From Pseudomonadota bacterium (GTDB taxonomy: Bacteria; Pseudomonadota; Gammaproteobacteria; Burkholderiales; Sulfuriferulaceae), in NCBI GenBank assembly GCA_021795395.1, contig JAJYPN010000029.1:1-35423 (forward strand): a stretch of DNA of 35,423 nucleotides, read 5' to 3'. The notes below the pieces were generated by a model. The model was given only the letters and a program-made list of their open reading frames with translations. It was not told the origin of the DNA and made no database searches. Positions 3-35,139 of this stretch are shown piece by piece; position 1 is the first letter of the stretch, and each line of letters opens with the position of its first letter. The position numbers and the translations under genes are program-made.

Positions 3-491
3 GCTGCGGGTGGACGTACTGGCCAGATCCATTATAATCCCAGAGGCGAGGTGGTTTCGGGGCGCAGTGCGGCGTTCGATACGTTGCTCGAATCGGATGA
101 TGGTGGGTACTCAGGCAGCGGCGAACCCAGTTCCGTCGGACTGCCCGATCCTTCGGCGCAGGCGCAGCAACACCTGGCGCGGCAGTTGACGCAAGTACTG
201 CGTAACCTGCGAGATAACATAATTGCTAATTCATCGAATAAGGACTCATCACCACCAACAAATGGAAATGATCCTGATTCGGCAAAAAATTTAACGCCGA
301 TCAACCCAGGAAAAAACTGCGACGGTAATTGCAAACCTTGCCCGCCAAATCAATATTGGACACATCAAGGAGATGCCCATGGTTCAGTCGGAGGCGTTCA
401 TTATCATGGCATAGTTTGGAACCAAAATCCGAAAACCTGCATGTGTTATCCGAACCGGATATCTGGCCCAACACCAAACAATCTTCGGTAA
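3..491 (+). CDS. RHS-family protein, C-terminal end with toxin-like tip (5' cut by window edge)
   Basis: The frame is open to the left edge, so this is the end of an RHS gene starting outside the window, or another orphan cassette. The first ~40 residues match the RHS repeat of the complete carrier at 32019-34595 (GQIHYNPRGEVVSGRS). A shared linker follows (SVGLPDPSAQAQ, then ARQLTQVLRNLRD), and then a variable tip of about 95 residues. The tip is Asn/Pro/Ser-rich at first and ends in a compact block with CKPCPP, VHYHGIVWNQNP and CMCY. The same His/Asn-Gln/Cys pattern appears in the tips at 2870, 34595 and 34903-35139, so it is probably one toxin fold, activity unknown. Base composition turns AT-rich after the linker, as expected for an exchanged tip. 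RHS tips are typically toxins neutralised by the adjacent gene, here at 498. The RHS assignment is strong; toxicity is inferred. Confidence 0.8.
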   Translation, partial: AAGGRTGQIHYNPRGEVVSGRSAAFDTLLESDDGGYSGSGEPSSVGLPDPSAQAQQHLARQLTQVLRNLRDNIIANSSNKDSSPPTNGNDPDSAKNLTPINPGKNCDGNCKPCPPNQYWTHQGDAHGSVGGVHYHGIVWNQNPKTCMCYPNRISGPTPNNLR

Positions 492-497
492 TGAAAA

Positions 498-971
498 ATG
501 AACTATTTGAGTTTAGATAAACTGATGACTCAGTTCCGGCTTGCGAGTAGAGAGCTATTCAATCATTTCTTCCATATTGTAAATCCGTATGAAAATAATG
601 GTTGGATTATTGCAGAACGATTTGCCACCGTTGAAGAAATTTTGTTTCAAAAACTTGTAACTGAGCCTGCATCATTGCCGAGCATTAGGTATGGTGACAT
701 CCAAGCTGATATAAAGGTTGAGTTAAACAGTTGTGAATTTGCTCCAACAATGTTTAATCGTGATGTGGATTCTGGTTATTGGGACTTTCCGTTAACTGAG
801 ACTAATAAGGAAGCCGAGCTGGTTTTCATAAGCTTCTTTGACTGGAATGTACTTGATTACCGCGACAATCAATATGTACGCGTTTTAGTGCAAGCTTGGC
901 CGGGGCACTCTGATATTGTAGGAAAGCATGGCTTAATTGAGTCGCAGTATGTGCAGTTTACTAAAAGGTGA
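498..971 (+). CDS. putative immunity protein for the upstream RHS tip
   Basis: 157 residues, starting 6 bases after the RHS stop, so the two are almost certainly co-transcribed. The protein is acidic and aromatic-rich with no signal peptide or membrane segment, as expected for a cytosolic immunity protein. Recognisable blocks are RLASRELFNHFF near the start, EPASLPSIRYGDIQAD in the middle and SGYWDFPLTE followed by FISFFDWNVLDYRD near the end. I have an impression of similar proteins next to RHS toxins elsewhere but cannot name a family. The function is inferred from position. It shows no visible similarity to the putative immunity proteins at 1629, 2871 or 34632. The coding sequence is AT-rich compared with the RHS core, which suggests it travelled with its tip. 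Confidence 0.65.
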   Translation: MNYLSLDKLMTQFRLASRELFNHFFHIVNPYENNGWIIAERFATVEEILFQKLVTEPASLPSIRYGDIQADIKVELNSCEFAPTMFNRDVDSGYWDFPLTETNKEAELVFISFFDWNVLDYRDNQYVRVLVQAWPGHSDIVGKHGLIESQYVQFTKR

Positions 972-1043
972 ATGGCCCCGTGGGGATATCAGGTTTTTTG
1001 TGTGAGAGCAAACGAGGGTCAGTGTAATGTGGGGGCTGAACCC

Positions 1044-1153
1044 GATTCCCATCTGCTCACCGACATCGCCGACGGCCTTGGCAACCGCATCCACTTTACC
1101 CTCGATGCTGCGGGTAGACGTACCGGCCAGATCCTTATAATTCCCGTAGCGAA
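1044..1153 (+). pseudogene. RHS core remnant, frameshifted (orphan cassette 2)
   Basis: From about 1044 the sequence encodes an RHS repeat piece (HLLTDIADGLGNRIHF, then TGQIL) that aligns with carrier residues encoded near 34060-34150. Against the carrier, one base is missing around 1130-1140: the stretch after CAGATCC reads LIIPVAKW where the carrier has HYNPRGEV. The reading frame therefore shifts into that of the tip ORF at 1154. Nothing upstream of about 1044 resembles RHS, so the fragment is cut at both ends and cannot be delivered by itself. It looks like a silent tip donor or a decaying copy. Confidence 0.75.
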
Positions 1154-1618
1154 GTGGTTTCGGGGCGCAGTGCGGTATTCGATACGTTGCTCGAATCGGA
1201 TGATGAGGGGTTTTCAGGGAGCATGAACGTCTATCAGTACGCAAATTCCAACCCGCTGACGTTTATTGATTCGCTAGAATTGAATGGGGTGCTGCCGCTG
1301 CCAATACCCATGCCACCGCCGCCTGTAAATCCGGGTGGAGGTGCGGGTGCGACTAATGGTGCCGCACCTCTGCTCTTTAATGGAAGTAGGGAGCGACCTG
1401 CTGGGAGACCGGATCGACCTTCTGAAAGGCCAGATCGGCCAAGCGATGACCCGTGGCCGAAAGAGAATAAAAATTTCTGCATTCGCACATATGCAATCTG
1501 CCAAAATGAAGGCTGGACTGGAAATTGTCAGTCATGCCTTGATCGTTGTCTTGGATCACGGAGCGGGAATTGGCCGTTTCAGATATGCCATCGCAAAATG
1601 AACAGTTGTGAAAAATAG
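1154..1618 (+). CDS. orphan RHS tip ORF with cysteine-rich toxin-like C-terminus
   Basis: 154 residues from a GTG that is really an internal RHS codon; no ribosome binding site supports independent translation. It begins with the RHS repeat end (VSGRSAVFDTLLESDDEG), but after FSGS it jumps to NVYQYANSNPLTFIDSLEL, the usual closing motif of a full RHS core (normally ...DPLGL). The other copies here continue into the GEP-SVGLPDP linker instead. A Pro/Gly-rich spacer and an Arg/Pro repeat (GRPDRPSERPDRPSDDP) lead to a 48-residue tip with seven cysteines, including the spacing CQSCLDRC and the motifs FCIRTYAICQ and GNWPFQIC. This tip is unrelated to the other four. A Cys-rich, possibly metal-binding toxin domain is inferred. 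The putative immunity gene follows at 1629. Confidence 0.65.
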   Translation: MVSGRSAVFDTLLESDDEGFSGSMNVYQYANSNPLTFIDSLELNGVLPLPIPMPPPPVNPGGGAGATNGAAPLLFNGSRERPAGRPDRPSERPDRPSDDPWPKENKNFCIRTYAICQNEGWTGNCQSCLDRCLGSRSGNWPFQICHRKMNSCEK

Positions 1619-1628
1619 GGACTGTCGA

Positions 1629-2006
1629 ATGTCTCCCTTAGAAGATGCTTTCGACTTTCTCTTTGAGTTCGATGATGGGAACATCGAACTTGAGATACCG
1701 ATTACGCCGAAGTATGTTGAAAAAATCAGACTACTTTCAACGGATTTATTAGCTAAAGGCGTAGACGTATCTGGCTTGTCGATGCCAGAAGTCAATGCGC
1801 TTCTGAGCGAAATGGCTAGTGTAAACACTAGATGGAATCATTCCTTACAACAATGTTTAGATCGAGCATATCGACTTGCTGAAGAGAATTTGTTAGACGA
1901 TGCTGCCCAACTGTTAAACTCTTTTGCAAAAGATTGCCCTTCCGGCTTCTACGGGAAGATTGCTCTTGATGTCAAAGATGAAATTATTGGGCGTAAGTCG
2001 GAGTAA
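1629..2006 (+). CDS. putative immunity protein for the cysteine-rich RHS tip
   Basis: 125 residues from ATG 1629. A GTG at 1608 in the same frame would overlap the tip stop (1616-1618) and add seven residues. The protein is acidic and helix-rich: an N-terminal block with FLFEFDDGNIELEIPI, a central helix around VNALLSEMASVNTRW, and a C-terminal helical pair (QCLDRAYRLAEENLLDDAAQ, then SFAKDCPSGF) resembling a single TPR-like hairpin. It has no signal or membrane segment. The immunity role is inferred only from its position immediately behind a toxin-like tip. No family recognised. Confidence 0.55.
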   Translation: MSPLEDAFDFLFEFDDGNIELEIPITPKYVEKIRLLSTDLLAKGVDVSGLSMPEVNALLSEMASVNTRWNHSLQQCLDRAYRLAEENLLDDAAQLLNSFAKDCPSGFYGKIALDVKDEIIGRKSE

Positions 2007-2115
2007 TCCCGACACCAAACAATCTTCGGTAACAAAAAAATGGGGTCTCACAATCCAACATTTGTTGATTGAAATGTAGAGCAATAAAGAGCAATAAAAG
2101 AATAAAGGGGATGAA

Positions 2116-2247
2116 TAAAGGGGACGCTACCCTTTTTCCGCCCTCTGTTCTGTGATAAAAGGGACGCTACCCTTTTCAAAATAAAATAATGTGATAAAAG
2201 GGACGCTACCCTTTTCAAAATAAAATAATGGGTAGCGTCCCCTTTTT
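2116..2247 (+). repeat. REP-like hairpin cluster with a 39-bp perfect tandem repeat
   Basis: Three copies of GGGACGCTACCCTTTT on the plus strand and one inverted copy (GGGTAGCGTCCCC) at 2230. The two central copies lie in an exact 39-base tandem duplication (2152-2190 and 2191-2229). The first copy continues into CCCTCTGTTCTGTG, which recurs inverted at 35341-35370. Each unit can fold as AAAAGGG paired with CCCTTTT around a GACGCTA loop. The cluster ends exactly where the RHS sequence of cassette 3 begins. No associated transposase is present in the window. Confidence 0.85.
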
Positions 2248-2249
2248 TC

Positions 2250-2453
2250 TGCAAAGCCGTCACCCGCTATCGTCACGATGCCGCGGGGCAACTCGCTCAA
2301 GTAACTAATCCCGATGGCTCGACTGTCACATACACTTATGACGCCGCCCATCGCTTAACCGACATCGCCGCCGGTCCTGGCAACCGCATCCACTTTACCC
2401 TCGATGCTGCGGGTGGACGTACTGGCCAGATCCATTATAATCCCAGAGGCGAG
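2250..2453 (+). pseudogene. RHS core remnant, 5' truncated at a repeat (orphan cassette 3)
   Basis: Homology to the carrier starts abruptly at AAAGCCGTCACCCG (carrier position about 33967), directly behind the inverted REP-like unit. It runs without frameshift through two RHS/YD repeats (AVTRYRHDAAGQ, YTYDAAHRLTDIA, IHFTLDAAGGRTGQ) into the ORF at 2454. The frame is open only back to 2229, where the repeat supplies a stop (2226-2228). There is no start codon before 2454 and no promoter visible, so this is a silent 5'-truncated copy. Confidence 0.8.
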
Positions 2454-2870
2454 GTGGTTTCTGGGCGCAGTGCGGTATTCGATACGTTACTCGAATCGGA
2501 TGATGATGGGTACTCAGGCAGCGGCGAACCCAGTTCCGTCGGACTGCCCGATCCATCGGCGCAGGCACGGCGACACCTCGCGCGGCAGTTGACGCAAGTA
2601 CTGCGTAACCTGCGGGACAGGATGTGTCCTAAAGAACGGCCATGCGATCCACCAGAAGGTACCCAATGCTATGATAAGGTCGATTATGGCAAACCTCATG
2701 CAGGATTAAGCCCTCATTATCACGTTTTTCAAATGCAGAAAAAACGATCTGATGGGATATGTTTCTGGAGATATCTTGGCGGAAAGGTTGGTGTTGGAGT
2801 TTTTTCAACCCCACCTGAAGGTTTAAAACCTTGCTCGTCTTATCCAAATTTTATCGGTAGAGGTTCATAA
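2454..2870 (+). CDS. orphan RHS tip ORF, His/Cys-motif toxin-like tip
   Basis: 138 residues in the intact frame of the RHS remnant; the GTG at 2454 is an internal RHS codon rather than a convincing start. Order: RHS repeat end, shared linker (GLPDPSAQARRH, LARQLTQVLRNLRDRM), then a tip of about 83 residues. The tip has CPKERPCDPPEGTQC, LSPHYHVFQMQ and GICFWRYLGG, matching the H-x-H ... C/C-F-W pattern of the carrier tip, although the Asn-Gln-x-Pro element is replaced by QKKRSDG. The tip is AT-rich compared with the RHS part. The stop at 2868-2870 abuts the TTG start of the next gene, so toxin-like tip and immunity gene form a tight pair. Confidence 0.7.
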   Translation: MVSGRSAVFDTLLESDDDGYSGSGEPSSVGLPDPSAQARRHLARQLTQVLRNLRDRMCPKERPCDPPEGTQCYDKVDYGKPHAGLSPHYHVFQMQKKRSDGICFWRYLGGKVGVGVFSTPPEGLKPCSSYPNFIGRGS

Positions 2871-3479
2871 TTGAACAGTCAGCATGCAAGTTCGTTAATA
2901 TTGGGATATCCGCGATATATAGTCGGTTTCGACTTTCGAATTGGTAAACAGGATCAAGATATATTTCCTGCAACTATTGATAATCAAGTCTGGCCTCGAC
3001 AACCGATCGATCATGCTTCGCTGGATGAAAATGGTTTTAATTTGTTTGATGGACCTATCAAAAAAATCACTACTGGGCGACCTCAAATTAATTCGGTTCT
3101 AGTCGCTTTTGATTTACCAGTGATTTTTGTAGATGCGCTAGCTGCTACATTTGGAATAGTTCCTCTGCCGGTTAATTTATTGTCTGCTAGGGCATGGATA
3201 TTTCTTGGTTTTGACATAATTGATGCCAGGACACAATCCAGTGGCATCTATAGCTTTGATTGGGCAGAAGAAGAATTCACTTTTATCATCAAAAAACTGT
3301 CTTTGCAACTAAATAAAAATGGACTTGTTGATAATGAGACAAATGCCATTAAAGCAGCAATATTTTTTGATTCGCTTGTAAAGGAACATGCGCCATTTGC
3401 TCCATGTGGTGTATGGGTTAATCGAAAAAACGACTTATGGGATTCTAAAGGCGAACTTGGTCAAAGAAGTCGACCTTAG
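2871..3479 (+). CDS. putative immunity protein for orphan RHS tip 3
   Basis: 202 residues; the likely start is TTG at 2871, directly after the tip stop with no gap, so expression would rely on translational coupling. No family recognised. The protein is soluble with no signal peptide. Visible blocks are YIVGFDFRIGKQDQDIFPAT at the N-terminus, FDLPVIFVDALAATFGIVPL in the middle, and FDWAEEEFTFIIKKLSLQL and HAPFAPCGVWVNRKNDLW near the end. It is AT-rich like the preceding tip. The immunity role is inferred from arrangement. It shows no obvious similarity to the genes at 498 or 34632, although the tips they accompany look homologous. Confidence 0.6.
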   Translation: MNSQHASSLILGYPRYIVGFDFRIGKQDQDIFPATIDNQVWPRQPIDHASLDENGFNLFDGPIKKITTGRPQINSVLVAFDLPVIFVDALAATFGIVPLPVNLLSARAWIFLGFDIIDARTQSSGIYSFDWAEEEFTFIIKKLSLQLNKNGLVDNETNAIKAAIFFDSLVKEHAPFAPCGVWVNRKNDLWDSKGELGQRSRP

Positions 3480-3489
3480 AGAAGTATGG

Positions 3490-3565
3490 GAAGCAAGACG
3501 TACAGCTACTATCCCAATGGCGATCTGCTTACGATGCTACGGGTAGACGCAGACCCGATGGGAGG
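3490..3565 (+). pseudogene. RHS core scrap with internal deletion
   Basis: The sequence encodes KTYSYYPNGDLL, matching carrier residues STYRYYPNGDLH (near 33795). It then continues at once into ATGCTACGGGTAGACG, which matches the carrier-type DAAG-R repeat that lies about 300 bases further along in intact copies. An internal deletion has thus joined two separate RHS repeats out of frame. No tip follows. This is a non-functional relic. Confidence 0.6.
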
Positions 3566-3595
3566 GTCAGCCCAACATTCCTACATTTCTATGGG

Positions 3596-3633
3596 AAAAA
3601 AGGGGACGCTACCCTTTTCACGTCCCCTTTTTT
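3596..3633 (+). terminator. REP-like hairpin with 13-bp stem, probable bidirectional terminator
   Basis: AAAAAAGGGGACG at 3596-3608 pairs perfectly with CGTCCCCTTTTTT at 3621-3633 around the loop CTACCCTTTTCA. The T-run on the right and A-run on the left give intrinsic-terminator character on both strands. It is built from the same core as the other GGGACGCTACCC repeats and would end transcription of the orphan RHS cassettes. Confidence 0.6.
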
Positions 3634-3657
3634 CTCTATAATATTAGCCACGAATGA

Positions 3658-3771
3658 CTGCTGAGAAACATTCCGATGAATAAGAAGATCCTGTGCCGAT
3701 GGCTTCAAGCTGGGTACATTGATGAGGGAACCTTGTTTGCAACGGATGCGGGAACCCCGCAAGGGGGGTAA
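3658..3771 (+). pseudogene. group II intron reverse transcriptase/maturase fragment
   Basis: One frame reads LLRNIPMNKKILCRWLQAGY, then IDEGTLFATDAGTPQGG and a stop. This is the characteristic segment of bacterial group II intron-encoded reverse transcriptases (LtrA-like) just before the catalytic palm, where ...WLKAG...T..GTPQGG.ISP is typical. Only about 37 codons survive. The rest of the RT, the maturase domain and the intron RNA ends are not seen nearby. It is a relic of a mobile intron that once inserted in or next to the RHS island. Confidence 0.8.
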
Positions 3772-3889
3772 TAAACGAGCGGATTAGCCAGACTTGAAAT
3801 ACAGTAATAACAGCCTACTCTTTTTTATCACAAATTATCAAAAGCCATATTCGTGCTGCTACCGCTAAACTGATCGTATAAAAAATTAC

Positions 3890-3918
3890 TTGACCTTTAT
3901 AGTTTTTGTACATACGAC
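3890..3918 (+). promoter_or_regulatory. possible promoter of the decayed brnT gene
   Basis: TTGACC (3890-3895) is followed 17 bases later by TACGAC (3913-3918), 6 bases before the ATG at 3925. The -35 is good and the -10 is weak. Confidence 0.3.
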
Positions 3919-3924
3919 AAAGAT

Positions 3925-4095
3925 ATGGGCATCACTTTCGACCTTGCCAAAGATGCCATCAACATCGAAAAAACATGGTATATCGCTTGCCGATGCAGTC
4001 GGGTTTGAATGGAAGGCGCCATAACTTGGCCTGACCAACGGCGTGAATACGGAGAACATGGAAACGCAGGCTGCTATTCCGGAGCCTTTGTATTT
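3925..4095 (+). pseudogene. brnT: brnT-like toxin pseudogene (two frameshifts)
   Basis: From ATG 3925 the reading is MGITFDLAKDAINIEK, the N-terminal signature of BrnT ribonuclease toxins (F-D-x-x-K-x-x-x-N-x-x-K-H-G). A run of six A at 3968-3973 has one base too many, so the expected KHGISLADAVGFEWKA continues in the next frame. A second indel near 4018-4020 again shifts the frame before TWPDQRREYGE, the conserved W-x-D-x-R-x-x-Y-G-E block. The C-terminal strand region is then lost, and the sequence runs into the end of opgG on the other strand. No brnA antitoxin is present. The gene is dead. Confidence 0.7.
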
Positions 4096-5712
4096 TCAGG
4101 TCGGATGATACTGATATAGCCAGGTTTCGGTGAGCGTCTGACCGCCGCTGCGCAGAAAAAGCCGGATTTCGACGGGATCTGAGCCTGCAGCGAGCGGACC
4201 GATATCGAATAAGGTGCGCCAGTGGGCCGGCCCGCCATCGGGAACGATTTCCGTCCCGACATTGCCGATTTTGCCGCGCGTCACCGTCAATACCGCTTCT
4301 GGCGTCGTCCCGGCAGGCAATTGCTCCAGCGCACCGCCACGGAACTCCACTTCGAACTTGTGCACACCCGGCGGCCGTTTTGCCGGCTCGCCGCCACGAC
4401 CGATGCGTGTCGCGACGCACCGCGCCAGCTGGTTTTTAAAAGGCTCCTCTTTCATCCAGTGCAACCGATAGTGAAACCGATGGCTGGAGCCTGCCGTCGC
4501 CTTGGCGCTCGGCACCCACATCGCGATAACGTTATCGTACAGCTCTTCGGTGGTATGCAGTTCGACCAACTGTACCGTGCCTGTTCCCCATTCTTCGAGC
4601 GGCTCTATCCACAGACTGGGACGCCGCTCGTAGTGAACGGCATCCAGATAGCGGTCGAAATGGCGTTCCCGTTGCATCAGGCCGAATCCGCGCGGATTGT
4701 GATCGGAAAAATACGACACATTGATTCCGGCAGGATCAATCAATGGCCGCCAGACATGTTCGTTGGCACCGGTCCATAATGCCAGGCCGTCCGAATCGTG
4801 AACCTCGGGACGCCAGTCGATCTGGAAGTGCTTGTCTTTTTCCGAAAACCAGTACATCGACGTCGCCGGCGCAATGCCGAAACGCTCGATATCCTTGCGC
4901 AGAAACAGGTTGGACTCGATATCCATGACCACGCCCTTTTCCCGCGTCATGATGAAACGGTAAGCGCCGGTGACGCTGGGGCCATCGAGCAGTGCGTATA
5001 CGATCACCGTATCCGAACCGGGTTTGGGCGCTTCGAAATAAAAACGGGTAAAAACGGGAAATTCCTCGGGTCGATCGGATTCCACAGTATTGACAGCCAG
5101 ACCGCGGGCGGAGATGCCGTATTGAAAATCGTCGCCGATAGCGCGGAAATACGATGCGCCCAGGAACGCTGCCCAGTCGTTGTTCTGCCAATCGAGATGC
5201 GACTGATCGCCCAGGCGGCTTTCCTGGATTTTAAATCCGGCATACCGTGTTTTCGGCCCGAGCTTTTGCGCCGGGCTGTCGGCAGGCATCTCGAAATGGC
5301 GTTTATCGAACAGAATTTCGCGGGCAACGGTATGGGGATGGTTTTTATCCGCGATATTATCCAGACGGAACATCGCTACCGGATACTGAAAAAATTTTCC
5401 GGGATGAAAAAAGGAAATCGGGTACTGACCCGGCCCGTTAGCGAACAATGCGTCTTCAGGTTTAAAACGTATCTTGCCGTGCGCATCCCAATCGATTTGC
5501 CCGAGTACATCGCGATCGGGTTGGAGATCGGGTTGATAGGGGTTTTTCGACATGGCCTGCGCCACTTTGATCAAGCCTGCCCACGAAAAATCGGTAGCAG
5601 GACCAAATGCGAGTCCGGTATCGGCTGCCAGGGCCCTGCTCCATGGTAAAGCGGTACTGGCAGCGGCCGTAGCCAGCATGGTGAGAAATTGGCGTCGATT
5701 GAGTTCAGACAT
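4096..5712 (-). CDS. opgG: periplasmic glucan biosynthesis protein OpgG/OpgD (MdoG family)
   Basis: 538 residues from ATG 5712, with AAAAGG about 9 bases upstream; a TTG two codons earlier is less likely. The MdoG-family body is clear: FAKR-like FDKRHFE, ASYFRAIGDDFQYGISARGL, then EEFPVFTRFYFE, SMYWFSEKDKHFQIDWRPEV and VQLVELHTTEELYDN. Family members act in the periplasm on beta-1,2-linked glucose chains of osmoregulated periplasmic glucans and are now known to include beta-1,2-glucanases. The N-terminus NRRQFLTML followed by a hydrophobic stretch and ALAAD is a twin-arginine (Tat) signal, which in E. coli is a feature of OpgD rather than of Sec-exported OpgG. It lies 87 bases downstream of opgH and is probably co-transcribed with it. 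G versus D cannot be settled by eye. Confidence 0.88.
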   Translation of the reverse strand: MSELNRRQFLTMLATAAASTALPWSRALAADTGLAFGPATDFSWAGLIKVAQAMSKNPYQPDLQPDRDVLGQIDWDAHGKIRFKPEDALFANGPGQYPISFFHPGKFFQYPVAMFRLDNIADKNHPHTVAREILFDKRHFEMPADSPAQKLGPKTRYAGFKIQESRLGDQSHLDWQNNDWAAFLGASYFRAIGDDFQYGISARGLAVNTVESDRPEEFPVFTRFYFEAPKPGSDTVIVYALLDGPSVTGAYRFIMTREKGVVMDIESNLFLRKDIERFGIAPATSMYWFSEKDKHFQIDWRPEVHDSDGLALWTGANEHVWRPLIDPAGINVSYFSDHNPRGFGLMQRERHFDRYLDAVHYERRPSLWIEPLEEWGTGTVQLVELHTTEELYDNVIAMWVPSAKATAGSSHRFHYRLHWMKEEPFKNQLARCVATRIGRGGEPAKRPPGVHKFEVEFRGGALEQLPAGTTPEAVLTVTRGKIGNVGTEIVPDGGPAHWRTLFDIGPLAAGSDPVEIRLFLRSGGQTLTETWLYQYHPT

Positions 5713-5799
5713 AGGCAAACCTTTTAATTATTCGATAGATTTACTGCAACATGGCCGAAGCTTACGCTTCAGCCATGAAAGAAAAGTCGAGCAACCGGA

Positions 5800-9523: not shown

Positions 9524-11281
9524 ATGAAATCAAAAAAAAAGGTGTTGAGTCTAGCGGTACTGGCAAGCCTGACATTAAGCGGCTGCGGTGGCGGAGGTGG
9601 AGGTGGCAGCGCGCCGAGCGCACCCCCGGCCAATAACCCGCCGCCTACGGTGCCGGTCACGAACAGCCCGCCGCCCAATACTTCACTGCAAAGATGGGCA
9701 CCCTATTTCAGCATTACCGGAACCGCTTCGGGGTCGACTACTACCTATACCAATGCCAATCTCAGTGTCGATTCCATACTCAATCCTAGTGATTATAAAT
9801 TGATAAGCGCCAGCAATTTCGATGCCTTGAATACTTACACCAATATCCAGAACATCGATTCCAGCGGAATTTTGACGCCATCGGGGTCCGGATACACCTT
9901 GAACGGCGCGAGATATTTCTTTTATTCCAGCCAGGGCAAACTGTATGCGCTCGATCTTACTTCTCAAACCGTACCGGCACCGGTCCAGCTCGGCACGCTG
10001 GCAGGCTTGACCGAAGTGTGCGGCATCCAGGCGGAACAGTCGGACGGCGCCGGCCTAACCGGCAACGTCGTCGTCAGCGGCGCCACTTCGGGGACGACGC
10101 CAGCCGCTTGCACGGCACCGCAAACCTGGGTAGTGCCGTTCAATACCCCTGCCACGACTTCCATTCCCATGCAGCCGCATACTTTTTTGGTGACTACCTT
10201 CATCAACAGCAGCATGCAGGCCACCGGATTCGTGATAGGCACCAATAACAGCGCGCAATCGGCTCCCAGCGTCAACGTCACGAACGATCTTACCCAGCCG
10301 GGAATCGTGACCAGCATCCCCTACAACCCAGGCGTAGGCGACTCCCTCGCCTCCGAACGGGGCGGCGATGCGTTAAACCAGTTCGTCTGGGTGGATACGA
10401 CCAATTCCAGCGGTAATACCGAAAAGCTGTATCTCGTCTCCAGTAACGGCAATGCAATTCAGGTGTCGGGCGGCGGTTTTCCTAACACGAATATATCCAG
10501 CAATAGCGCCGCCGACGAGAACGGCAATCTGTATCTGGTAGCCACCTCGGGAACCAGCGGAAATTACACGCTGACGGTATACAAGGTGACGCTGACGAGC
10601 GCCCAGGCCAGCGTCATTTACACGTTGCCCGGTATCACCAGTACTACCGTCTCGTCCAACATTACCGTCAAACCCGACGGGTCGGGAGGCATGCTTACCG
10701 CCATCGAGCCGGGCACCGCCAACCCGGTGCAGAACATCGTATTCAATACTGCAACCGGCGGGGTACTCCATAACTATGCTTCGCTCCCCAGCAGTAATTC
10801 CTATCAATTCATAGGCCAGGATACCTCGGGCATCTTCAATGCCGAAGATGCGAGCAATATCGCTCAAAATGACCTGTATGCGGTGAATCTGGGGAGCGGA
10901 ACGCCAGTCAAAACCTTGCCCAATCAATACATGATCAGCCCGATTTGGGGAAACAATTTCATCAATCCGACGAATCCATATTACCAATCCTACGAATCGC
11001 TGCTGGCGGCAGCGTATCAGCCGGGAACGCAAACTTTGAGCGGTACGGCATCGGTGATCGAAACGCAAACGTATACGACGACAGCCGCGTTTGCCCTGCC
11101 GTCCGGCACCGCTTCATTCGTCCCTGCGTACATCAGCACCAGCCCGCACTACATTATGGGCATGAGTTCGGGTACGTCCGATATGCTGTTCGCAGTCGTG
11201 CCGTCTACCAATCTCTCCAGCCCGGCGCAACCCCAGATTCTGGAAACAAACTCTGGCTCCACCAAATGGAATGGATATTGA
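9524..11281 (+). CDS. large outer-membrane lipoprotein with glycine tract, paralogue of 13078-14769
   Basis: 585 residues. It starts with a lipoprotein signal (KKKVLSLAVLASLTLSGC, lipidated Cys21). Position +2 is Gly, so outer-membrane sorting is expected. Seven glycines and a Pro/Ala/Asn linker follow. The mature part is rich in Ser, Thr, Gly and Asn, with short repeated beta motifs such as YFFYSSQGKLYALDLTSQ, ENGNLYLVATSGTSGN and NDLYAVNLGSGTP, as in beta-propeller or WD/PQQ-like sheets. It ends PHYIMGMSSGTSD...STKWNGY. The same elements in the same order occur in the minus-strand protein at 13078-14769. Surface binding or scaffolding is a guess. No enzyme motif seen. Confidence 0.75.
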   Translation: MKSKKKVLSLAVLASLTLSGCGGGGGGGSAPSAPPANNPPPTVPVTNSPPPNTSLQRWAPYFSITGTASGSTTTYTNANLSVDSILNPSDYKLISASNFDALNTYTNIQNIDSSGILTPSGSGYTLNGARYFFYSSQGKLYALDLTSQTVPAPVQLGTLAGLTEVCGIQAEQSDGAGLTGNVVVSGATSGTTPAACTAPQTWVVPFNTPATTSIPMQPHTFLVTTFINSSMQATGFVIGTNNSAQSAPSVNVTNDLTQPGIVTSIPYNPGVGDSLASERGGDALNQFVWVDTTNSSGNTEKLYLVSSNGNAIQVSGGGFPNTNISSNSAADENGNLYLVATSGTSGNYTLTVYKVTLTSAQASVIYTLPGITSTTVSSNITVKPDGSGGMLTAIEPGTANPVQNIVFNTATGGVLHNYASLPSSNSYQFIGQDTSGIFNAEDASNIAQNDLYAVNLGSGTPVKTLPNQYMISPIWGNNFINPTNPYYQSYESLLAAAYQPGTQTLSGTASVIETQTYTTTAAFALPSGTASFVPAYISTSPHYIMGMSSGTSDMLFAVVPSTNLSSPAQPQILETNSGSTKWNGY

Positions 11282-12318: not shown

Positions 12319-12347
12319 TTGACATGGGTCGTTTTGATAACTATAGT
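12319..12347 (+). promoter_or_regulatory. near-consensus sigma70 promoter of the phd-vapC pair
   Basis: TTGACA (12319-12324), exactly 17 bases, then TATAGT (12342-12347). Transcription should begin near 12354. This rules out the upstream in-frame ATG at 12323-12325 as the antitoxin start and supports GTG 12381. Confidence 0.75.
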
Positions 12348-12380
12348 CGCCAACATGACCATCGACGGCGGAGCTCCCCC

Positions 12381-12611
12381 GTGCACACTATTCAAGCCTC
12401 TGACTTCAAAACTAAATGCCTTGCTTTAATGGACGAGGTTTCGCGTACTGGTGAAACATGGATAGTCACCAAAAACGGGCGCCCGATAGCGGAATTGCGA
12501 CCTTATTCAAGCGGTCGGACCGAGTCGCCTTTCGGCCTGCACCCCGATCTCGAAATCACAGGCGACATCGTGTTGCCGCTGGAAGATGCCGACTGGAAAG
12601 CCGCCGAGTGA
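12381..12611 (+). CDS. Phd/YefM-type antitoxin
   Basis: 76 residues from GTG 12381, which has GGAG 8 bases upstream (12370-12373). The region before it contains the promoter, so longer versions are excluded. HTIQASDFKTKCLALMDEV, then GETWIVTKNGRPIAELRPY, is the standard Phd/YefM fold: N-terminal dimerisation and DNA-binding, ending in the K-x-G-x-P-x-A motif. An acidic toxin-binding tail follows (GDIVLPLEDADWKA). Family members neutralise the partner toxin and repress their own promoter. The stop overlaps the toxin start by 4 bases (GTGA). Confidence 0.88.
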   Translation: MHTIQASDFKTKCLALMDEVSRTGETWIVTKNGRPIAELRPYSSGRTESPFGLHPDLEITGDIVLPLEDADWKAAE

Positions 12612-13009
12612 TCATACTCGATACCCATACCTTATTATGGATGGATCGTAACGACACATCGTTGGGGGCTCAATCGCGCAGCCTGATAGAAAATATGTGG
12701 CGGACGAATACGGTGGCTGTAAGCGCAATCAGCTTTTGGGAAGTAGCCATGCTTGTCCAGCGCGGACGCATACTATTACCCGTAGCTACGAATATCTGGC
12801 GTGCAGATTTGTTGCAAGCAGGTATTCGGGAAATCGCCATTGATGGGCGCATAGGACTGCTGGCGACTACTTATACCGAATTGCATCGTGATCCGGCGGA
12901 CCGATTTATCGTTGCAACCGCCATGACGCACCATGCATTGCTCGTCACCGCAGACAGCAAAATCCTTGCGTGGAAAGCAAAATTAACCACGCAGGATGCC
13001 AAAGCCTGA
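12608..13009 (+). CDS. vapC: PIN-domain toxin (VapC-like)
   Basis: 133 residues from GTG 12608, overlapping the antitoxin stop by 4 bases, the usual arrangement. All PIN-domain acidic residues are in place: Asp5 (ILDTHTLLW), Glu45 (SFWEVAML), Asp98 (RDPADRFIVATA) and Asp116 (LLVTADSKI). These bind Mg2+ for RNA cleavage, typically of tRNA or rRNA in this family. The protein looks intact and active. Pairing with a Phd-type rather than VapB-type antitoxin is common in this PIN subgroup. A hairpin follows at 13024-13055. Confidence 0.88.
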   Translation: MIILDTHTLLWMDRNDTSLGAQSRSLIENMWRTNTVAVSAISFWEVAMLVQRGRILLPVATNIWRADLLQAGIREIAIDGRIGLLATTYTELHRDPADRFIVATAMTHHALLVTADSKILAWKAKLTTQDAKA

Positions 13010-13077: not shown

Positions 13078-14769
13078 TCAATACCCGCTCCAGAATACGG
13101 TGGATGTATTCGTGCCGAGCGGTTGCACCTGCGCATTTGCTGCCGACGATGCAGGTACGGCTGCAAACAATACGCCGGTGGAGTTTTGCATGCCCATGAT
13201 GTAATGGGGCGTACTGTCCAGCGCAGCGATAGTAAAGGGTAACGAATTGGGTACGCTGAATTGACCGGTGGTCTGGTAAGTCTGTGTTCCGATTACCGAC
13301 ACCACGCCGCTGGAGCTGTCCTGCGCCAGGAACGATCCATAGGCGGCGCTGTCGAGATTCGGAAGCTCGATCTGGTTGCTCGACCACAACTGCGTAAGCC
13401 CGATCTGATTCGATAAAATAGGATTAGGGCTACCGGTTGTCAGATTGACCGCATATACGTCGTTTTGCGATGAAGCGACGGCATTGATGACGCCCGAACC
13501 GTCGAGTCCGATAAATTGCATGGCGCTACCGGCATTTCCGGCAAAATTGTTTAGCGGTTGAGCGCTCTGACCCGCCAAACTCAATTGGTAATTCTGGTTC
13601 GTTTGCGGAGTGCCGCTACCGGTAACTGTCAACATGCCGTAGGTTCCCTGCTGATTGACCGAAAGTTTGGTCGAGATCGGGCCGGCGCCAGTCACAGAAA
13701 ATGAAGCAGTAACCGGTTGCGCAGCGCCTCCAGCAATGGGCGCCCGAAATACCTGAACATTAAACGGCGCTGCAGTGCCGGTTATCGCAACCAGGTACAG
13801 ATTTCCGGCGCCGTCGGTGGCCGTATTGTTGGACAGGTTGCCGGGCAAACCCGTGACCGCTGCCGCTGTCGCACTGGTGCCGTTCGGGGACACGGAGAAC
13901 AAATTACTCGTGGTCGGCGTCGTGCTGTGGTCATAAACCCAGACGAATTGATGCGTAGCGTCTCCGCCCCGGTCGGATGCCAGCGATTCGGTGGCAGAAT
14001 TGTAAGCGATCCCACTAACCGGCGTCCCCATGCTTGCCGGATCGGTCGTATAATTCACGCTGGAAGTGCCGTTGCTTTGCGTCACGCCTATGACATAGCC
14101 CGTGGTTTGAATGTTACTGGAATTCGCCGAAATGAACGTGGCGACCAGAAATTCATGAAACGTCAACGGAGTAATGGCTGTAGTAGAGGGAGTACCGAAT
14201 GGCACGACCCACGTCAGGAGCGAAGTACAAGCGTTACCTGAAGTTACTCCGCTTACGATCACATCACCAGTTGTGCCCGAGCCATCGAACTGTTCAGCCT
14301 GTATACCGCAAACCTGCGTAGCGCCTAGAACGCCAAGCTGAACTGCTGCCGGCTGCGATGCCGTCAGATCGACGGCATACAGCTTGCCGCCGCTGGAATA
14401 AAAGAAATAGCGCACGCCCTGCACGGTAAATCCCGAACCGGTCGCTGACAACATTCCGCTGGAATCGATATAGGATAGGGAAGTCTGCGGACCGTCGAAC
14501 GCGGCGGATGTGATCGGGAGGGTTGAAACAGGCCTTGTGATCGAATCCACTTGCAAGCTTCCGTAAACGGGGGTGGAACCGCCGGTGGTGATGCTGTAAA
14601 ACGGCGCCCACAATTGCGGCGGATTGTTAAGAACGTTGGTATTCGGCGGCGGATTGCTGGCTGGCGGCGCAACGGGCGCTCCGCCTCCGCCTCCGCCTCC
14701 CCCTCCTCCGCATCCCGATAACGCCAGGCTGGACAAAATGACCGCTGATAAAAGTTTTTTTGGTTTCAT
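13078..14769 (-). CDS. large outer-membrane lipoprotein with polyglycine tract, paralogue of 9524-11281
   Basis: 563 residues. The lipoprotein signal KPKKLLSAVILSSLALSGC puts the lipidated Cys at 20. Ten glycines come next, encoded by a GGCGGA-type hexamer repeat (14680-14709), then a Pro/Asn linker. The mature part follows the same plan as the paralogue: QLWAPFYSITTGGST (versus RWAPYFSITGTASG), GVRYFFYSSGGKLYAVDL, VCGIQAEQFDGSGTTGDVIV, ASDRGGDATHQFVWVYD, and a C-terminus PHYIMGMQNSTG...STVFWSGY. Repeated short beta motifs suggest a propeller-like fold. It faces the first copy across the aquaporin and toxin-antitoxin genes. Function unknown. Confidence 0.75.
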   Translation of the reverse strand: MKPKKLLSAVILSSLALSGCGGGGGGGGGGAPVAPPASNPPPNTNVLNNPPQLWAPFYSITTGGSTPVYGSLQVDSITRPVSTLPITSAAFDGPQTSLSYIDSSGMLSATGSGFTVQGVRYFFYSSGGKLYAVDLTASQPAAVQLGVLGATQVCGIQAEQFDGSGTTGDVIVSGVTSGNACTSLLTWVVPFGTPSTTAITPLTFHEFLVATFISANSSNIQTTGYVIGVTQSNGTSSVNYTTDPASMGTPVSGIAYNSATESLASDRGGDATHQFVWVYDHSTTPTTSNLFSVSPNGTSATAAAVTGLPGNLSNNTATDGAGNLYLVAITGTAAPFNVQVFRAPIAGGAAQPVTASFSVTGAGPISTKLSVNQQGTYGMLTVTGSGTPQTNQNYQLSLAGQSAQPLNNFAGNAGSAMQFIGLDGSGVINAVASSQNDVYAVNLTTGSPNPILSNQIGLTQLWSSNQIELPNLDSAAYGSFLAQDSSSGVVSVIGTQTYQTTGQFSVPNSLPFTIAALDSTPHYIMGMQNSTGVLFAAVPASSAANAQVQPLGTNTSTVFWSGY

Positions 14770-28698: not shown

Positions 28699-28763
28699 CG
28701 TTTATCTCCGTTTAGACGTCTAACTGGCAAAGCGGGAGGGGTTCTTACAATCCAGCAGGTGTC

Positions 28764-29418: not shown

Positions 29419-29440
29419 ATAAAATTGCTCCCCCTTTGGA

Positions 29441-30712: not shown

Positions 30713-30750
30713 ATTAAAAAGGGGGATAAAAAGGGGACGCTACCCTTTTC
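30704..30750 (+). repeat. REP-like unit with two partial copies
   Basis: AAAAAGGGGATTAAAAAGGG, then GGATAAAAAGGGGACGCTACCCTTTT. Two truncated AAAAAGGGG starts precede one full hairpin unit. Confidence 0.8.
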
Positions 30751-30897
30751 TATCTTAACATAGCCGATTTCGCTTACAACCGCCCGTTTCCGCATATCCC
30801 GTCTTCCGGTTTTCTCACTTTGCTATAATCGCCTATCCTCGTCAATTAACGCTCATCAGTGGTTCAAAACTGCATCCTGGATTAAGTACTCATCAAT

Positions 30898-31869
30898 ATG
30901 CCCAAACCCTCTGGCGAATATAAAGCGACATTCTGGCTGCCTGGCGGTCACTTGCAAACGCTGTATCCCTACTTCTTTGCGCCCAGGCCTACGCTTGCGT
31001 ACCGGCGCGAACGCTGGGAGTTGCCCGACGGCGATTTCCTCGATCTGGACTGGATTGACAATGCCACCGAACAACCCTTACTGGTTGTTTTCCATGGGCT
31101 TGAAGGCGATTCGCGGGGCTATTATGTCCTGTCATTGATGCAGCAAGCCCAACAGTTGGGCTGGCGCGGTGTGGCGATCAATTTTCGCGGCTGTTCGGGC
31201 GAGCCCAACCGGTTGCCGCGCGCGTATTTCGCCGGCGATAGCGCGGAAATCGGTTATGTGCTGACGCGCCTGCGCCGGCAATTTCCGCACGATACAATAT
31301 TTAGCGCTGGGTTTTCGCTGGGTGCCAATGCCTTGCTGCTATGGCTGGGCGAACAGGGAGAACGCGCGCTAGCGATCATTCAAGCGGCAGCCGGCATTTC
31401 CGCACCGCTGGACCTGACCGCCGCCGGCAATGCCCTCGATCGCGGCCTGAATCGCTGGATTTACACCCGCCATTTTTTAAAAACGCTCAAGCGTACAGCG
31501 TTACAGAAGCTGAAACGATTTCCCGGCATTTACGATGCGGATAAAGTCCGCGTTGCGACCACCTTGCGCGAATTCGACGATGTCGTCACGGCACCCCTCC
31601 ACGGCTACGCCGGCACCGACGATTACTGGCATCGCGCATCGAGCTTGCCCGGCCTGGCACGGATCAGCGTGCCGACTCTCGTCCTCAACGCACGCAACGA
31701 CCCTTTCGTACCCGGCAGTTCGCTGCCAGCCCGATACCAGGTATCCGCAGCGGTGACGCTGGATTTCCCCGATTACGGCGGTCACGTCGGATTTCCATCA
31801 GGTTTGCGAGGTGCTAACGGCAACTGGCTGTCCAAACGGATTACAGATTACTTGCAAAATCAGCGTTGA
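30898..31869 (+). CDS. YheT-type alpha/beta hydrolase
   Basis: 323 residues. The catalytic triad is visible: Ser140 in SAGFSLGANALL, Asp268 in NARNDPFVP and His296 in YGGHVGFPSG. The N-terminal FWLPGGHLQTLYPYFFAPRP and FHGLEGDSRGYYV are the hallmarks of the YheT/ABHD1-3 carboxylesterase family. The YheT substrate is unknown in bacteria; short-chain esterase activity has been shown for relatives. It is a single gene, with a weak hairpin (ATCCCGA/TCGGGAT) after the stop. Confidence 0.93.
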   Translation: MPKPSGEYKATFWLPGGHLQTLYPYFFAPRPTLAYRRERWELPDGDFLDLDWIDNATEQPLLVVFHGLEGDSRGYYVLSLMQQAQQLGWRGVAINFRGCSGEPNRLPRAYFAGDSAEIGYVLTRLRRQFPHDTIFSAGFSLGANALLLWLGEQGERALAIIQAAAGISAPLDLTAAGNALDRGLNRWIYTRHFLKTLKRTALQKLKRFPGIYDADKVRVATTLREFDDVVTAPLHGYAGTDDYWHRASSLPGLARISVPTLVLNARNDPFVPGSSLPARYQVSAAVTLDFPDYGGHVGFPSGLRGANGNWLSKRITDYLQNQR

Positions 31870-32018
31870 CAGCCCGGGCCGATCCCGACGGCATTACGGA
31901 TCAATCATCGGGATGAACGATTGTTTCAGACAGATCTGATTACCCGCGTCCAAACATCATCAAGCTGCAACACGCCTTATGTACGCTGGTCGTATCTTGT
32001 CGCGCAGGGTAAAGCGGT

Positions 32019-34595
32019 ATGAAGTATTTCTGTGCATGCCTGACGCTGCTCGCAAGCTTGTATACCCTGTCTGCCTATGCGTCCGGCGAACCGGTCTGGC
32101 AGGAACTTCAAGGCCAGACGGGCGCCGACCCGTATTCCGCCTGCCGGGCCGGCACAGCGGCGCTCGATGCGCTATGGTATCTGAAACAGGTAGAGTTTAA
32201 ATACGTCATTTACCGGATGTATAACGTAGCGTACTGCTATGGCACCTCCGTTTTGTTGGGTTTAGGCAAGCCGGAACCTCAAATGGGGTATTTGAACAGC
32301 GCCGATTGCATCGCCCACTGCGAGCCGCCGTTTATACCGCCCCAGTGCCGGAATTATGTCCCCTGCATTCCCGGCGTGCCGGTGCAAAAGAATGTCGGCA
32401 TCTCCGCCGGCAATCATCCCGGCGACGGCTCCAGTCCTTTATGCAATGGCAGCGATCCGATCAACGGCGCGACCGGCAATGAAGTGCTGCAGGAAACGGA
32501 TTACCGGTCGGCCAACGGGCTACTGGTTTTCCGGCGTACTTACAACAGCGCGCTCGGCATAGCACCCATGCCCGAGGTTTCTTCGGTCGGTCCAGCCTGG
32601 CGACACAGCTACGATCAGGCGATATACCAGTCTGCCTCGACTCATCTCACCGTCACCCGGGCCGACGGCAAGAGCTACGCATTTCATCGGGTCAAAAGCC
32701 GGTGGGTCGGCGACGCCGATGTAATGGATACGCTGGTACAGCTCCGCCGCTCCGGCCATCCCGACGGCTGGCGATACACGACCAAAGACCGGGCCGTGGA
32801 GCGCTACCATGCCGACGGCCGGCTGATTTCCATAACCCAGTCCAGCGGCTATGCCCAGACATTGACTTATAGCGACGGCACTGCGGGAGCCGGCGGCGGT
32901 TACGTGCTGGCCGATACGGGAGAGACTACCTCAACCGTACTCCCGGCAGGACGACTGATCCGGGTCAGCGACAGCAGCGGGCGTAGCCTGCAATTCGGCT
33001 ACGACGGCTCGGGTCTACTGGTCAGATTGATCGATCCGGCCGGAGCGGTTTATGGATACCATTACGACAGCCATCGGAACCTCGTCGCTATCACCGAACC
33101 GGATGGTGCAAAACGCCGTTATCTGTACGACGATACGCGCTTCCCCCACGCCTTGACCGGCCTGATCGACGAGAACGGCCAGCGCTATGCCAGCTGGACG
33201 TACGATGCGAACGGCCGCGCCATCTCCAGTGTACAGGCCAACGGCGTGGACAAATACACTCTGGCTTATGCCGCCGATAGCTCCGGCGTCCCGCCCTCGA
33301 CCCTCATTACCGACCCGCTCGGTGCATCGCGCACCTGGAAATTCGCCCAGGTTCAGGGTGTATTCAGGAACGCCGCCGTATCGCCCGCCTGCGATACCTG
33401 CCCTGCCAGCATCGCGCAATCCCTGCGCTACGACGCAAACGGCAACGTCATCTCGCGCACCGATATCAATGGGCTGGTCACTACGTACGTGTTTGACGAG
33501 ACGCGCAATCTGGAGATACGCCGCACCGAAGCGGCGGGCACGACTCAGGCGCGGACCATCCTGACGAACTGGTCGCCCGATTTTCGCCTGCCCGTGTTAA
33601 TCATTGAGCCCGGTCGCGTCATCCGTTACCGTTATGACCGCTCGGGCAATGTGCTGTCGCAAACCATCAACGACAATCTGCACGGCATGAGCCGGATACG
33701 TCTGAGCTACACGACCGCCGCCGATCGCACGCTACCCAATCTGCTCAAAACGCTCAGCGCATCCAACGGGAAGGCGATGGAAACCTCGACGTACCGCTAC
33801 TACCCCAACGGCGATCTGCATACCGCCATCAACGCGCAGGGACAAGTCGTGACCGTGACGAACTATGACGCCAACGGCCATCCGTTGTCGTTTATCGGCC
33901 CCGACGGCGTGGCCGTCACGCTGGATTACAGCCCGCGCGGCTGGCTGCGAAGCAAAACCGTCGGCAAAGCCGTCACCCGTTACCGCCACGATGCAGCGGG
34001 ACAACTCACTCAGGTGATGAATCCCGACGGCTCCACCGTCGCATACGTTCATGATGCCGCCCATCGCCTCACCGACATCGCCGATGGCCTTGGCAACCGC
34101 GTTCACTTTATTATCAATGCGATGGGTATACGTACCGGACAGATCCATTATAATCCCAGGGGCGAGGTAGTGTCGGGGCGCAGTGCGGTGTTCGACACCT
34201 TGCTCGAATCGGATGATGAGGGGTTTTCAGGCAGCGGCGAACCGGTTTCCGTCGGCTTGCCCGATCCTTCGGCGCAGGCGCAACAACGCCTGGCGCGGCA
34301 GTTGACGCACATGCTGCGCAACCTGCGGGACAGGATGTGTGGCGATGGGGATTGTCCGCCTTGTAAAACTGTAAGCGGTAAAATCGTTCCAGTAGGTACG
34401 GTTGCTTATAGGCCTTTAGATTCGCCAACTAAACCTCAACATGGAATTGACGGACCGCACTACAATATTCTCAGGGCTAATCAATCTCCGAGCAATACAT
34501 CTAAGCCATGTTGGTGTTTTTGGCAGCCAATAGGCAGTGTCCGACCATCAGAATTACCATCCGATGCAATCCCAATTGAACCATTTGCCAATTAG
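32019..34595 (+). CDS. RHS-repeat polymorphic toxin carrier with His/Cys-motif tip
   Basis: 858 residues. A Sec signal (KYFCACLTLLASLYTLSAYA) is followed by a Cys-rich N-domain. The DUF6531-type entry (NGSDPINGATGNEVLQETDY, GLLVFRRTYNSALG) leads into about fifteen YD/RHS repeats (YDSHRNLVAITEPDG, YDANGNVISRTDING, YDAAHRLTDIADGLG-like HDAAHRL). The repeats stop abruptly at NPRGEVVSGRSAVFDTLLES. There is no canonical RHS closing core (P-x-G-R-F-x-S-x-D-P-I-G-L ... D-P-L-G-L). A linker (SVGLPDPSAQAQQ, LARQLTHMLRNLRDRM) and a tip of about 80 residues follow, with CPPCK, VGTVAYRPLD, GPHYNILRANQSPSN and CWCFWQPIG. Export and toxicity are inferred. The immunity gene follows 36 bases later. Confidence 0.88.
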   Translation: MKYFCACLTLLASLYTLSAYASGEPVWQELQGQTGADPYSACRAGTAALDALWYLKQVEFKYVIYRMYNVAYCYGTSVLLGLGKPEPQMGYLNSADCIAHCEPPFIPPQCRNYVPCIPGVPVQKNVGISAGNHPGDGSSPLCNGSDPINGATGNEVLQETDYRSANGLLVFRRTYNSALGIAPMPEVSSVGPAWRHSYDQAIYQSASTHLTVTRADGKSYAFHRVKSRWVGDADVMDTLVQLRRSGHPDGWRYTTKDRAVERYHADGRLISITQSSGYAQTLTYSDGTAGAGGGYVLADTGETTSTVLPAGRLIRVSDSSGRSLQFGYDGSGLLVRLIDPAGAVYGYHYDSHRNLVAITEPDGAKRRYLYDDTRFPHALTGLIDENGQRYASWTYDANGRAISSVQANGVDKYTLAYAADSSGVPPSTLITDPLGASRTWKFAQVQGVFRNAAVSPACDTCPASIAQSLRYDANGNVISRTDINGLVTTYVFDETRNLEIRRTEAAGTTQARTILTNWSPDFRLPVLIIEPGRVIRYRYDRSGNVLSQTINDNLHGMSRIRLSYTTAADRTLPNLLKTLSASNGKAMETSTYRYYPNGDLHTAINAQGQVVTVTNYDANGHPLSFIGPDGVAVTLDYSPRGWLRSKTVGKAVTRYRHDAAGQLTQVMNPDGSTVAYVHDAAHRLTDIADGLGNRVHFIINAMGIRTGQIHYNPRGEVVSGRSAVFDTLLESDDEGFSGSGEPVSVGLPDPSAQAQQRLARQLTHMLRNLRDRMCGDGDCPPCKTVSGKIVPVGTVAYRPLDSPTKPQHGIDGPHYNILRANQSPSNTSKPCWCFWQPIGSVRPSELPSDAIPIEPFAN

Positions 34596-34631
34596 GTTTG
34601 CCATTAATACGGGCTATCGAGGATATAATCC

Positions 34632-34898
34632 ATGAAATATTGCGATGGGCAGGACGTTAAGTTGGACGACAAGGTAAAACTCGGTGATGACTCCGAAGGG
34701 GTCGTTGTATGTTCTATTGATACTGGTGAATATAGCAAAGAGCATCCTGAAAGCGCGTGGGGCTATCTGAAAAAAGGGGTAATGATCTTATTTCCAAAAT
34801 TTGGCCTCATTCATTATGAAGTACCAGAGGAAGGCTTGCAGTTAATTGCACGATCAGTTTGCAATTGTCGCCGTAAGGCAAAACGGGATCGCATCTAA
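34632..34898 (+). CDS. putative immunity protein of the RHS carrier tip
   Basis: 88 residues; GAGG is 10 bases before the ATG. A small SH3-like all-beta protein by pattern (DVKLDDKVKLGDDSEGVVVC, SIDTGEYSKEH, WGYLKKGVMILFPKFGLIHY). I recognise this as a recurrent protein type downstream of RHS tips with the ...NQxPxN...CxCFW motif, though I cannot give a family name. It sits 36 bases behind the tip, on the same strand. It is unrelated by eye to the immunity candidates at 498 and 2871. Confidence 0.7.
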   Translation: MKYCDGQDVKLDDKVKLGDDSEGVVVCSIDTGEYSKEHPESAWGYLKKGVMILFPKFGLIHYEVPEEGLQLIARSVCNCRRKAKRDRI

Positions 34899-34902
34899 CA
34901 AT

Positions 34903-35139
34903 CCCAAGGCGTATTCAAGAATGCCGCACGGTTGCTTATAGACCGTTAGAAATCATTCCTGAAGCTCACATTAAGCAACACGGTATATTTAGGTCACATC
35001 ATAACTTGTTGATCGCCAATCAATATCCATATCCAAAGTGCGATTGTTTCTGGGCAAAACAATCACGCGTAGCGAAACCTGCCGAAATCCAACCCTCGTG
35101 GATACCGAGCCAAATTAAGTCACTAAATTTATGCATTAT
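34903..35139 (+). pseudogene. orphan RHS tip remnant, fused to a deleted core fragment
   Basis: CAAGGCGTATTCAAGAATGC encodes QGVFKNA, matching the carrier core QGVFRNA (near 33354). A few bases later, in another frame, comes TVAYRPLEIIPEAHI, HGIFRSHHNLLIANQ and PKCDCFWAKQS, a clear homologue of the carrier tip (TVAYRPLD ... NILRANQ ... CWCFWQ). An internal deletion of about 1 kb of RHS sequence has therefore joined core to tip out of frame. The tip runs to about 35139, where transposase sequence begins. No immunity gene remains. Confidence 0.72.

Follow-up and report, generated by a model that had tools for sequence, protein, structure and literature searches.

Toxins and immunity proteins are thought to coevolve tightly, and the question raised by the locus described here is whether one toxin domain has been held with several unrelated immunity proteins. 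The locus lies on contig JAJYPN010000029.1 of a Pseudomonadota bacterium of the Sulfuriferulaceae (GCA_021795395.1, a 2.54-Mb assembly in 57 contigs), and the window analyzed is the whole contig of 35,423 nucleotides (nt). Four C-terminal tips of RHS proteins (T1 to T4) and three downstream genes are all present in it, making up three complete pairs and one remnant (T4). The RHS parts are all on the + strand; the window opens within an RHS lead-in, and an RHS repeat gene lies near its right end. Taken together, the locus probably represents displaced and current cassettes of an Rhs polymorphic toxin, with one tip domain and three immunity families, of which the window holds one pair each (T1/Imm-C, T2/Imm-B and T3/Imm-A). 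Lengths are in amino acids (aa), and HMM stands for hidden Markov model.

1..215, + strand: shared RHS lead-in DNA before T1 (nucleotide alignment)
3..491, + strand: orphan RHS lead-in and tip T1 (C type), tip end at 491, 5' end lost at the contig end (reading frame, lead-in alignment, profiles)
498..971, + strand: gene downstream of T1, encoding a putative Imm-C immunity protein of 157 aa (three relatives in other species; leave-one-out HMM at E 3.1e-12)
2404..2870, + strand: orphan RHS lead-in and tip T2 (B type), tip end at 2870 (reading frame, BLASTP, profiles)
2871..3479, + strand: gene downstream of T2, starting with TTG and encoding a putative Imm-B immunity protein of 202 aa (leave-one-out E 2.7e-15)
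32019..34595, + strand: RHS repeat protein, 858 aa, with C-terminal tip T3 (A type; tip about 34329-34592) (PF05593 at 1.5e-43, PF20148)
34632..34898, + strand: gene downstream of T3, encoding a putative Imm-A immunity protein of 88 aa (leave-one-out E 3.7e-32)
34877..35146, + strand: tip remnant T4 (A type), open frame with its stop at 35144-35146 (reading frame, profiles)

The initial annotation had described one pattern common to the four tips, and cross-detecting profiles and profile-profile alignment bear this out: the tips appear to form a single family, two members of which (T2 and T4) are degraded. The core reads, in order, CxxC, HxH or HxN, NQNP and CxC-[FY]-W. The CxxC, which was absent from the earlier pattern, and the CxC together give four Cys per tip. 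In an alignment of 39 tips, with counts taken over tips that have letters at the column concerned, each Cys of CxxC is found in 35/36, a G-T in 29/33 and 31/33, and a Tyr in 25/31. A His (as HxH or HxN) is invariant (39/39); the core further has Gln (38/39), Pro (37/39), the two Cys of CxC (38/39 and 39/39), an aromatic residue (Phe in 34/39 and Tyr in 4/39) and Trp (33/39). In T2 the first Cys of CxC has become Gly and QNP is lost, while T4 lacks both the RHS lead-in and CxxC and is followed by no immunity-like gene; its frame, initially placed as ending at 35139, runs on to the stop at 35144-35146. The shared element exceeds chance: the window has a single exact instance of H-x-[HN]-x5-Q-N-P-x2-C-x-C-[FY], in T1, and none of 100 shuffled versions has any.

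A profile of A-type tips built without T3 detects T3 (1.1e-29), T4 (1.9e-16), T2 (6e-5) and T1 (1.1e-4, 20.1 bits), and a profile of A and B tips gives T1 an E-value of 3.3e-6 and 25.4 bits. With these two profiles, chance frames selected by the motif reach at most 17.0 and 15.2 bits, respectively. As a control for motif selection, tip profiles were run against 4151 decoy frames, chance motif loci included. In this test, a profile of 23 A tips finds all 10 B tips (5e-20 to 7.6e-5), all four C tips (2.2e-6 to 3.1e-4) and T4 (3e-16), with the best chance frame at 16.9 bits (E 0.0012) compared with 20.2 for T1 and 18.8 for the tip at L043. The A and B profile finds the C tips at 2.7e-8 to 6.9e-6 (24.3 to 32.0 bits, against 15.2 for the best chance frame). 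Two higher-scoring decoys seem to be pieces of tips (L057 and L026). Given this margin over the best chance frame, T1 is likely a member, although less firmly so than T3, T4 and T2. The profile-profile comparison suggested by the initial annotation (hhalign, single comparisons, with profiles of 10 of the 23 labelled A tips, 4 of the 10 B tips and all 4 C tips) matches the subfamilies to one another, with E-values of 1.1e-9 for C-A (30 columns), 7.6e-15 for B-A and 6.4e-9 for C-B. At the level of single sequences, T2 matches T3 by BLASTP (3e-6), and T1 and T2 have no convincing direct match (best E 0.049). These last two are bridged by a Nitrosospira tip, which has 14/23 residues in common with T1 (E 2e-6) and carries, like T2, a GTQCY...PHYH element.

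The distribution of the family was surveyed by scanning for the motif above in one genome for each of 84,980 species. This pattern was designed on T1 and on the tips of Nitrosospira and of genome G123; since it requires QNP and C-x-C-[FY], sequences like T2, T3 and T4 are missed and the counts are lower bounds. Thirty-seven loci were retrieved, and reading of the frames assigned 32 to the family and five to chance; on viral contigs, all four motif loci were chance occurrences. The 32 tips sit at the ends of frames that by eye are mostly RHS-like, some of them cut by contig ends. CxxC lies upstream in 29 of the 32, even though it was not in the search pattern; it is missing from L026 and L057, where the frame has a late beginning, and from L056. 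Named hosts include Pseudomonadota, Acidobacteriota, Nitrospirota, Myxococcota, Bacteroidota and Lentisphaerota, plus a Sulfurovum, a genus of the Campylobacterota. The family is rare in random samples, as a profile of six tips found G123, G239 and the window's own genome among 274 genomes of the class. A 34-tip profile applied to 19 of the census genomes gave 21 places, namely the known ones, a second G123-type tip and one new tip (L082, in a Jannaschia genome), which the census motif missed because it reads NQDP and CxCRW.

Every one of the 31 census tips with downstream DNA (the remaining tip, L035, ends at its contig end) is followed by a gene of family Imm-A (21), Imm-B (7) or Imm-C (3). 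These genes lie on the same strand as the tip. For 29 of the 31, the start is no more than 50 nt from the tip stop, and for the other two the distance is 101 nt (L051) and 198 nt (L036); 10 overlap the stop, with start codons as taken by the script. The genes were first sorted by eye and then examined with leave-one-out HMMs against 98 proteins, the groups (24 A, 10 B and 4 C) comprising the census together with Burkholderia arboris, G239, Nitrosospira, G123 and the window. All 38 members were recovered, at 3.9e-10 or better for A, 1.9e-4 for B and 1e-8 for C, the weakest being two Imm-B proteins (L038, 1.9e-4, and L055, 9.4e-5). Non-members scored E-values of at least 0.1, except for L015, a duplicate of the L037 gene. 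Typical lengths in the three families are about 80, 155 and 200 aa. One downstream protein (L028) has 180 aa, matches Imm-A (5.7e-17) and by eye holds two such domains; its gene starts 3 nt before the end of the tip stop.

Profile-profile comparison of the immunity families (20 A, 8 B and 4 C sequences) showed no relation, with E-values of 0.59 for A-B, 0.058 for A-C and 0.82 for B-C, in agreement with the earlier remark that the downstream genes differ in length and have no common motif. Each tip-immunity pairing recurs in other species. The T3 downstream gene is 67% identical to the gene after a Bradyrhizobium tip (L034), and that of T2 matches, at 26% identity and E 3e-9, the Imm-B gene that in Nitrosospira follows a B tip on an RHS protein. 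In B. arboris, Imm-A (8e-5) comes after an A tip whose carrier is a VgrG-like/Rhs protein of 1989 aa (VgrG by eye). The frame directly after the new tip L082, a single case that was used in building no pattern or profile, is Imm-B (1.5e-21), and the Imm-A and Imm-C profiles are silent on it. Genome G123 has tandem RHS cassettes (L037/L015/L019, G123:C275), in which an A tip with Imm-A is succeeded by a B tip with Imm-B and these by a further RHS frame. We regard it as very likely, from these comparisons, that one tip family is held with three immunity families.

Immunity type clusters by tip type, but imperfectly. On the tip tree, which is weak (79 columns), the three immunity labels need six changes, compared with a mean of 12.7 when shuffled (none of 200 shuffles was as low) and a minimum of two, so that type is clustered, though not perfectly. 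The clearest sign of repeated antidote replacement is the pair formed by L041 (Lunatibacter, Imm-B) and L031 (a myxobacterial bin, Imm-C), which have similar tips with the same ending (FGGCCG.PGAPC), are grouped on the tip tree (support 93/76), and are followed by different immunity families. In addition, the A profile detects the tip of L055 (Imm-B) at 5e-20, which places that tip near the A type. We give even chances to the fuller statement that a four-Cys, all-beta toxin domain, about 55-90 residues long and present in at least seven bacterial phyla, has more than once exchanged its antidote for an unrelated protein with little change in the toxin. If true, these cassettes would be a natural test set for one toxin surface blocked by unrelated scaffolds. 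The family also offers a way to distinguish stepwise replacement of inhibitors (a second gained, the first lost) from separate recruitment by each toxin subtype.

The predicted structure of the T3 tip is all-beta (predicted local distance difference test, pLDDT, 88.6; predicted template-modelling score 0.76; pLDDT of at least 90 at 68/89 residues), with no helix of four or more residues and no clear match in the PDB. The initial annotation had suggested metal binding through both His and Cys. Its Cys part is plausible, as CxxC and CxC would together make a Cys4 site that probably binds metal structurally; the His part fared less well, as the invariant His would fit an active site better. We think it quite likely that the tips have a toxin function of some kind.

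Several observations would fit readings other than one toxin domain with three unrelated antidotes. The part common to C and A tips is short (the 30 hhalign columns), and the extensions past CxC-[FY]-W differ in length and sequence, as would be expected if the tips were a mere Cys/His motif, for example a metal-binding end cap, carried by different toxins whose toxic parts, and hence immunity genes, differ. The T3 model places the core in one all-beta domain that leaves little room for a second toxin, and in tips such as T1 and L051 there is little else between lead-in and stop; we consider this explanation improbable. Slightly less so, yet still unlikely, is that Imm-A, -B and -C share one fold and have diverged too far for sequence profiles to connect them. 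Imm-B is itself very divergent, as its weakest leave-one-out value indicates, but the typical lengths and the lack of any profile-profile signal speak for separate families.

A further point on the same side is that Imm-A occurs also without a tip, which would fit a view of the downstream genes as unrelated cargo rather than immunity genes. Against this stand the regular succession of a tip and one of the three families on the same strand (31/31 census tips and L082), the short distances and overlaps, and the repeated tip-gene order in the G123 array, and we judge the cargo view very improbable. The tip-less genes came from a plasmid search with Imm-A, which returned four records; none of the three that were opened has a tip beside the gene, and the fourth has the same species and identity as the first. 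They lie on a Cupriavidus metallidurans megaplasmid, on a Caballeronia plasmid, where a PAAR-like frame (by eye) adjoins, and on the IncP plasmid pEG1-1 (L085 2501-2734), in cassette position between an integron integrase and aadA9, qacE delta 1 and sul1. These look like orphan immunity genes, that is, an immunity family without a neighboring toxin, once beside an integron integrase. The same search with one Imm-C query gave no match, and with one Imm-B query only Nitrosospira.

The preferred reading, a shared tip with exchangeable immunity genes, also accounts for the DNA before the tips. Lead-in positions 24-213 are 94% identical to 2427-2616 and 88% to 34140-34329 (over 190 nt, 94% for T1-T2, 88% for T1-T3 and 86% for T2-T3), and identity falls to about chance level near the tip start. 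We infer a recombination junction at this drop; a conserved lead-in before divergent tips is the layout expected if recombination there exchanges tip and immunity gene together. The long gene at 32019-34595 is the sole long RHS gene in the window, and its shortened lead-in also precedes T1 and T2. It begins with a signal-peptide-like sequence (by eye), and Rhs_assc_core (TIGR03696, autocleavage) was not reported for it at E up to 1; several census relatives have a DPxGL-type core sequence by eye. In B. arboris, the VgrG-like beginning (by eye) of the protein that carries the A tip suggests type VI secretion in that species. The tip family, the three immunity families, the recurrence of their pairs and the junction at the end of lead-in identity are all read from sequence comparison.

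On this basis, the window would hold displaced and current toxin cassettes of one Rhs polymorphic toxin, with the tip domain in all but one unrelated cassette, and every complete cassette would have arrived with an immunity gene of its own, belonging to one of three families that look unrelated. The Rhs shell would deliver the tip, presumably antibacterial, into competitors, where it may act in the cytoplasm, with RNA, the target proposed for Ntox24, as the likeliest one; the downstream protein would bind the tip and block it. In the likely history, homologous recombination in the shared lead-in swapped tip and immunity gene as a unit, and on a longer time scale different inhibitors came to be paired with similar tips.

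The fifth, unrelated cassette has lead-in DNA in common with the others but not the CxC tip:

1154-1618: fifth, different orphan tip (below-cut-off Rhs_assc_core remnant, E 4.9e-4)
1608-2006: downstream gene of the fifth cassette

Its downstream protein scored E 0.49 against the Imm-C profile and did not appear in the matches shown for A or B. The sequence GGGACGCTACCCTTTT occurs five times on the + strand (2121, 2161, 2200, 3603 and 30734), mostly beside orphan cassettes, with a near copy by eye around 35300, and is possibly a repeat element or recombination site. The last bases of the window (35364-35423) resemble the start of the RHS lead-in by eye, and positions 1-60 lie inside an RHS lead-in; the assembly probably broke in RHS repeats, and both contig ends may belong to one longer array. 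Elsewhere, two similar glycine-rich lipoprotein-like genes (9524-11281, + strand; 13078-14769, - strand) face each other, with an aquaporin-like gene and a Phd/PIN-like pair (12324-13009) between them, all by eye.

No Pfam or NCBIfam model scored over its cut-off for the tips or immunity families in the members scanned, nor did any PADLOC model for the window proteins, and no description of this tip family was found in the literature searched. The tip family and its three immunity partners thus appear to be unnamed, and they supply one toxin domain and three immunity families for annotation. Nuclease toxins of the HNH/Endo VII or beta-beta-alpha-metal kind (Tox-SHH, Tox-GHH and Tde5 types) have a metal finger with a helix; the T3 model, a prediction, shows no helix of four or more residues, and the tips scanned had no Pfam hit to these families. 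For Ntox24 (PF15529), a search of 34 tips allowing E up to 1 gave 12 sub-threshold matches, the best at E 0.0052; the match in L058 has 16.4 bits and covers profile positions 43-90 of 91; no tip scanned reached its curated cut-off of 24 bits, and T3, T1 and T2 gave nothing.

In the parts of Zhang et al. (2012, PMC3482391) used here, Ntox24 is all-beta, is listed with Y, H and H in the table and with a single conserved histidine in the text, is partnered by Imm50 and Imm53, and is conceivably a metal-independent endoRNase. The tips resemble it in having more than one partner family and, going by the predicted T3 model, in being all-beta; their conserved His (39/39) and Tyr (25/31) may correspond to its Y, H and H. 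They differ in having CxxC and CxC, neither of which is given for Ntox24 in those parts of PMC3482391. A second difference lies in the partners. Pfam contains Imm50 and Imm53, and the three window downstream genes and five relatives match no Pfam immunity family at E up to 1, hence neither of these two. From the sub-threshold Ntox24 match and the all-beta T3 model, we tentatively favor a small toxin that would resemble an RNase and have a Cys4 site holding metal structurally, with less than even odds on the RNase step itself.

The locus is otherwise laid out like the Rhs polymorphic toxins described by Zhang et al. (PMC3482391, in the parts used here), with RHS repeats, a conserved lead-in, a variable and exchangeable C-terminal toxin domain, an immunity gene directly after it (in the three window pairs and all 31 census tips) and an array of tip-immunity cassettes with a shared lead-in, although the main RHS gene of the window has no detectable Rhs_assc_core. 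The initial annotation considered one toxin domain with several immunity types unusual, but the principle is known and already in print, both for single toxin families with several immunity families such as Ntox24 (PMC3482391) and for one nuclease toxin that, as Liu et al. (2026, PMC13392607) show, has two immunity proteins of different structure. The latter, Tde5 with Tdi5a and Tdi5b, is a direct case of two inhibitors neutralizing one toxin. Tde5 is a beta-beta-alpha-metal DNase, whereas the T3 tip is predicted to be all-beta, and its two immunity proteins stand behind one toxin and bind together, whereas here each complete tip has one.
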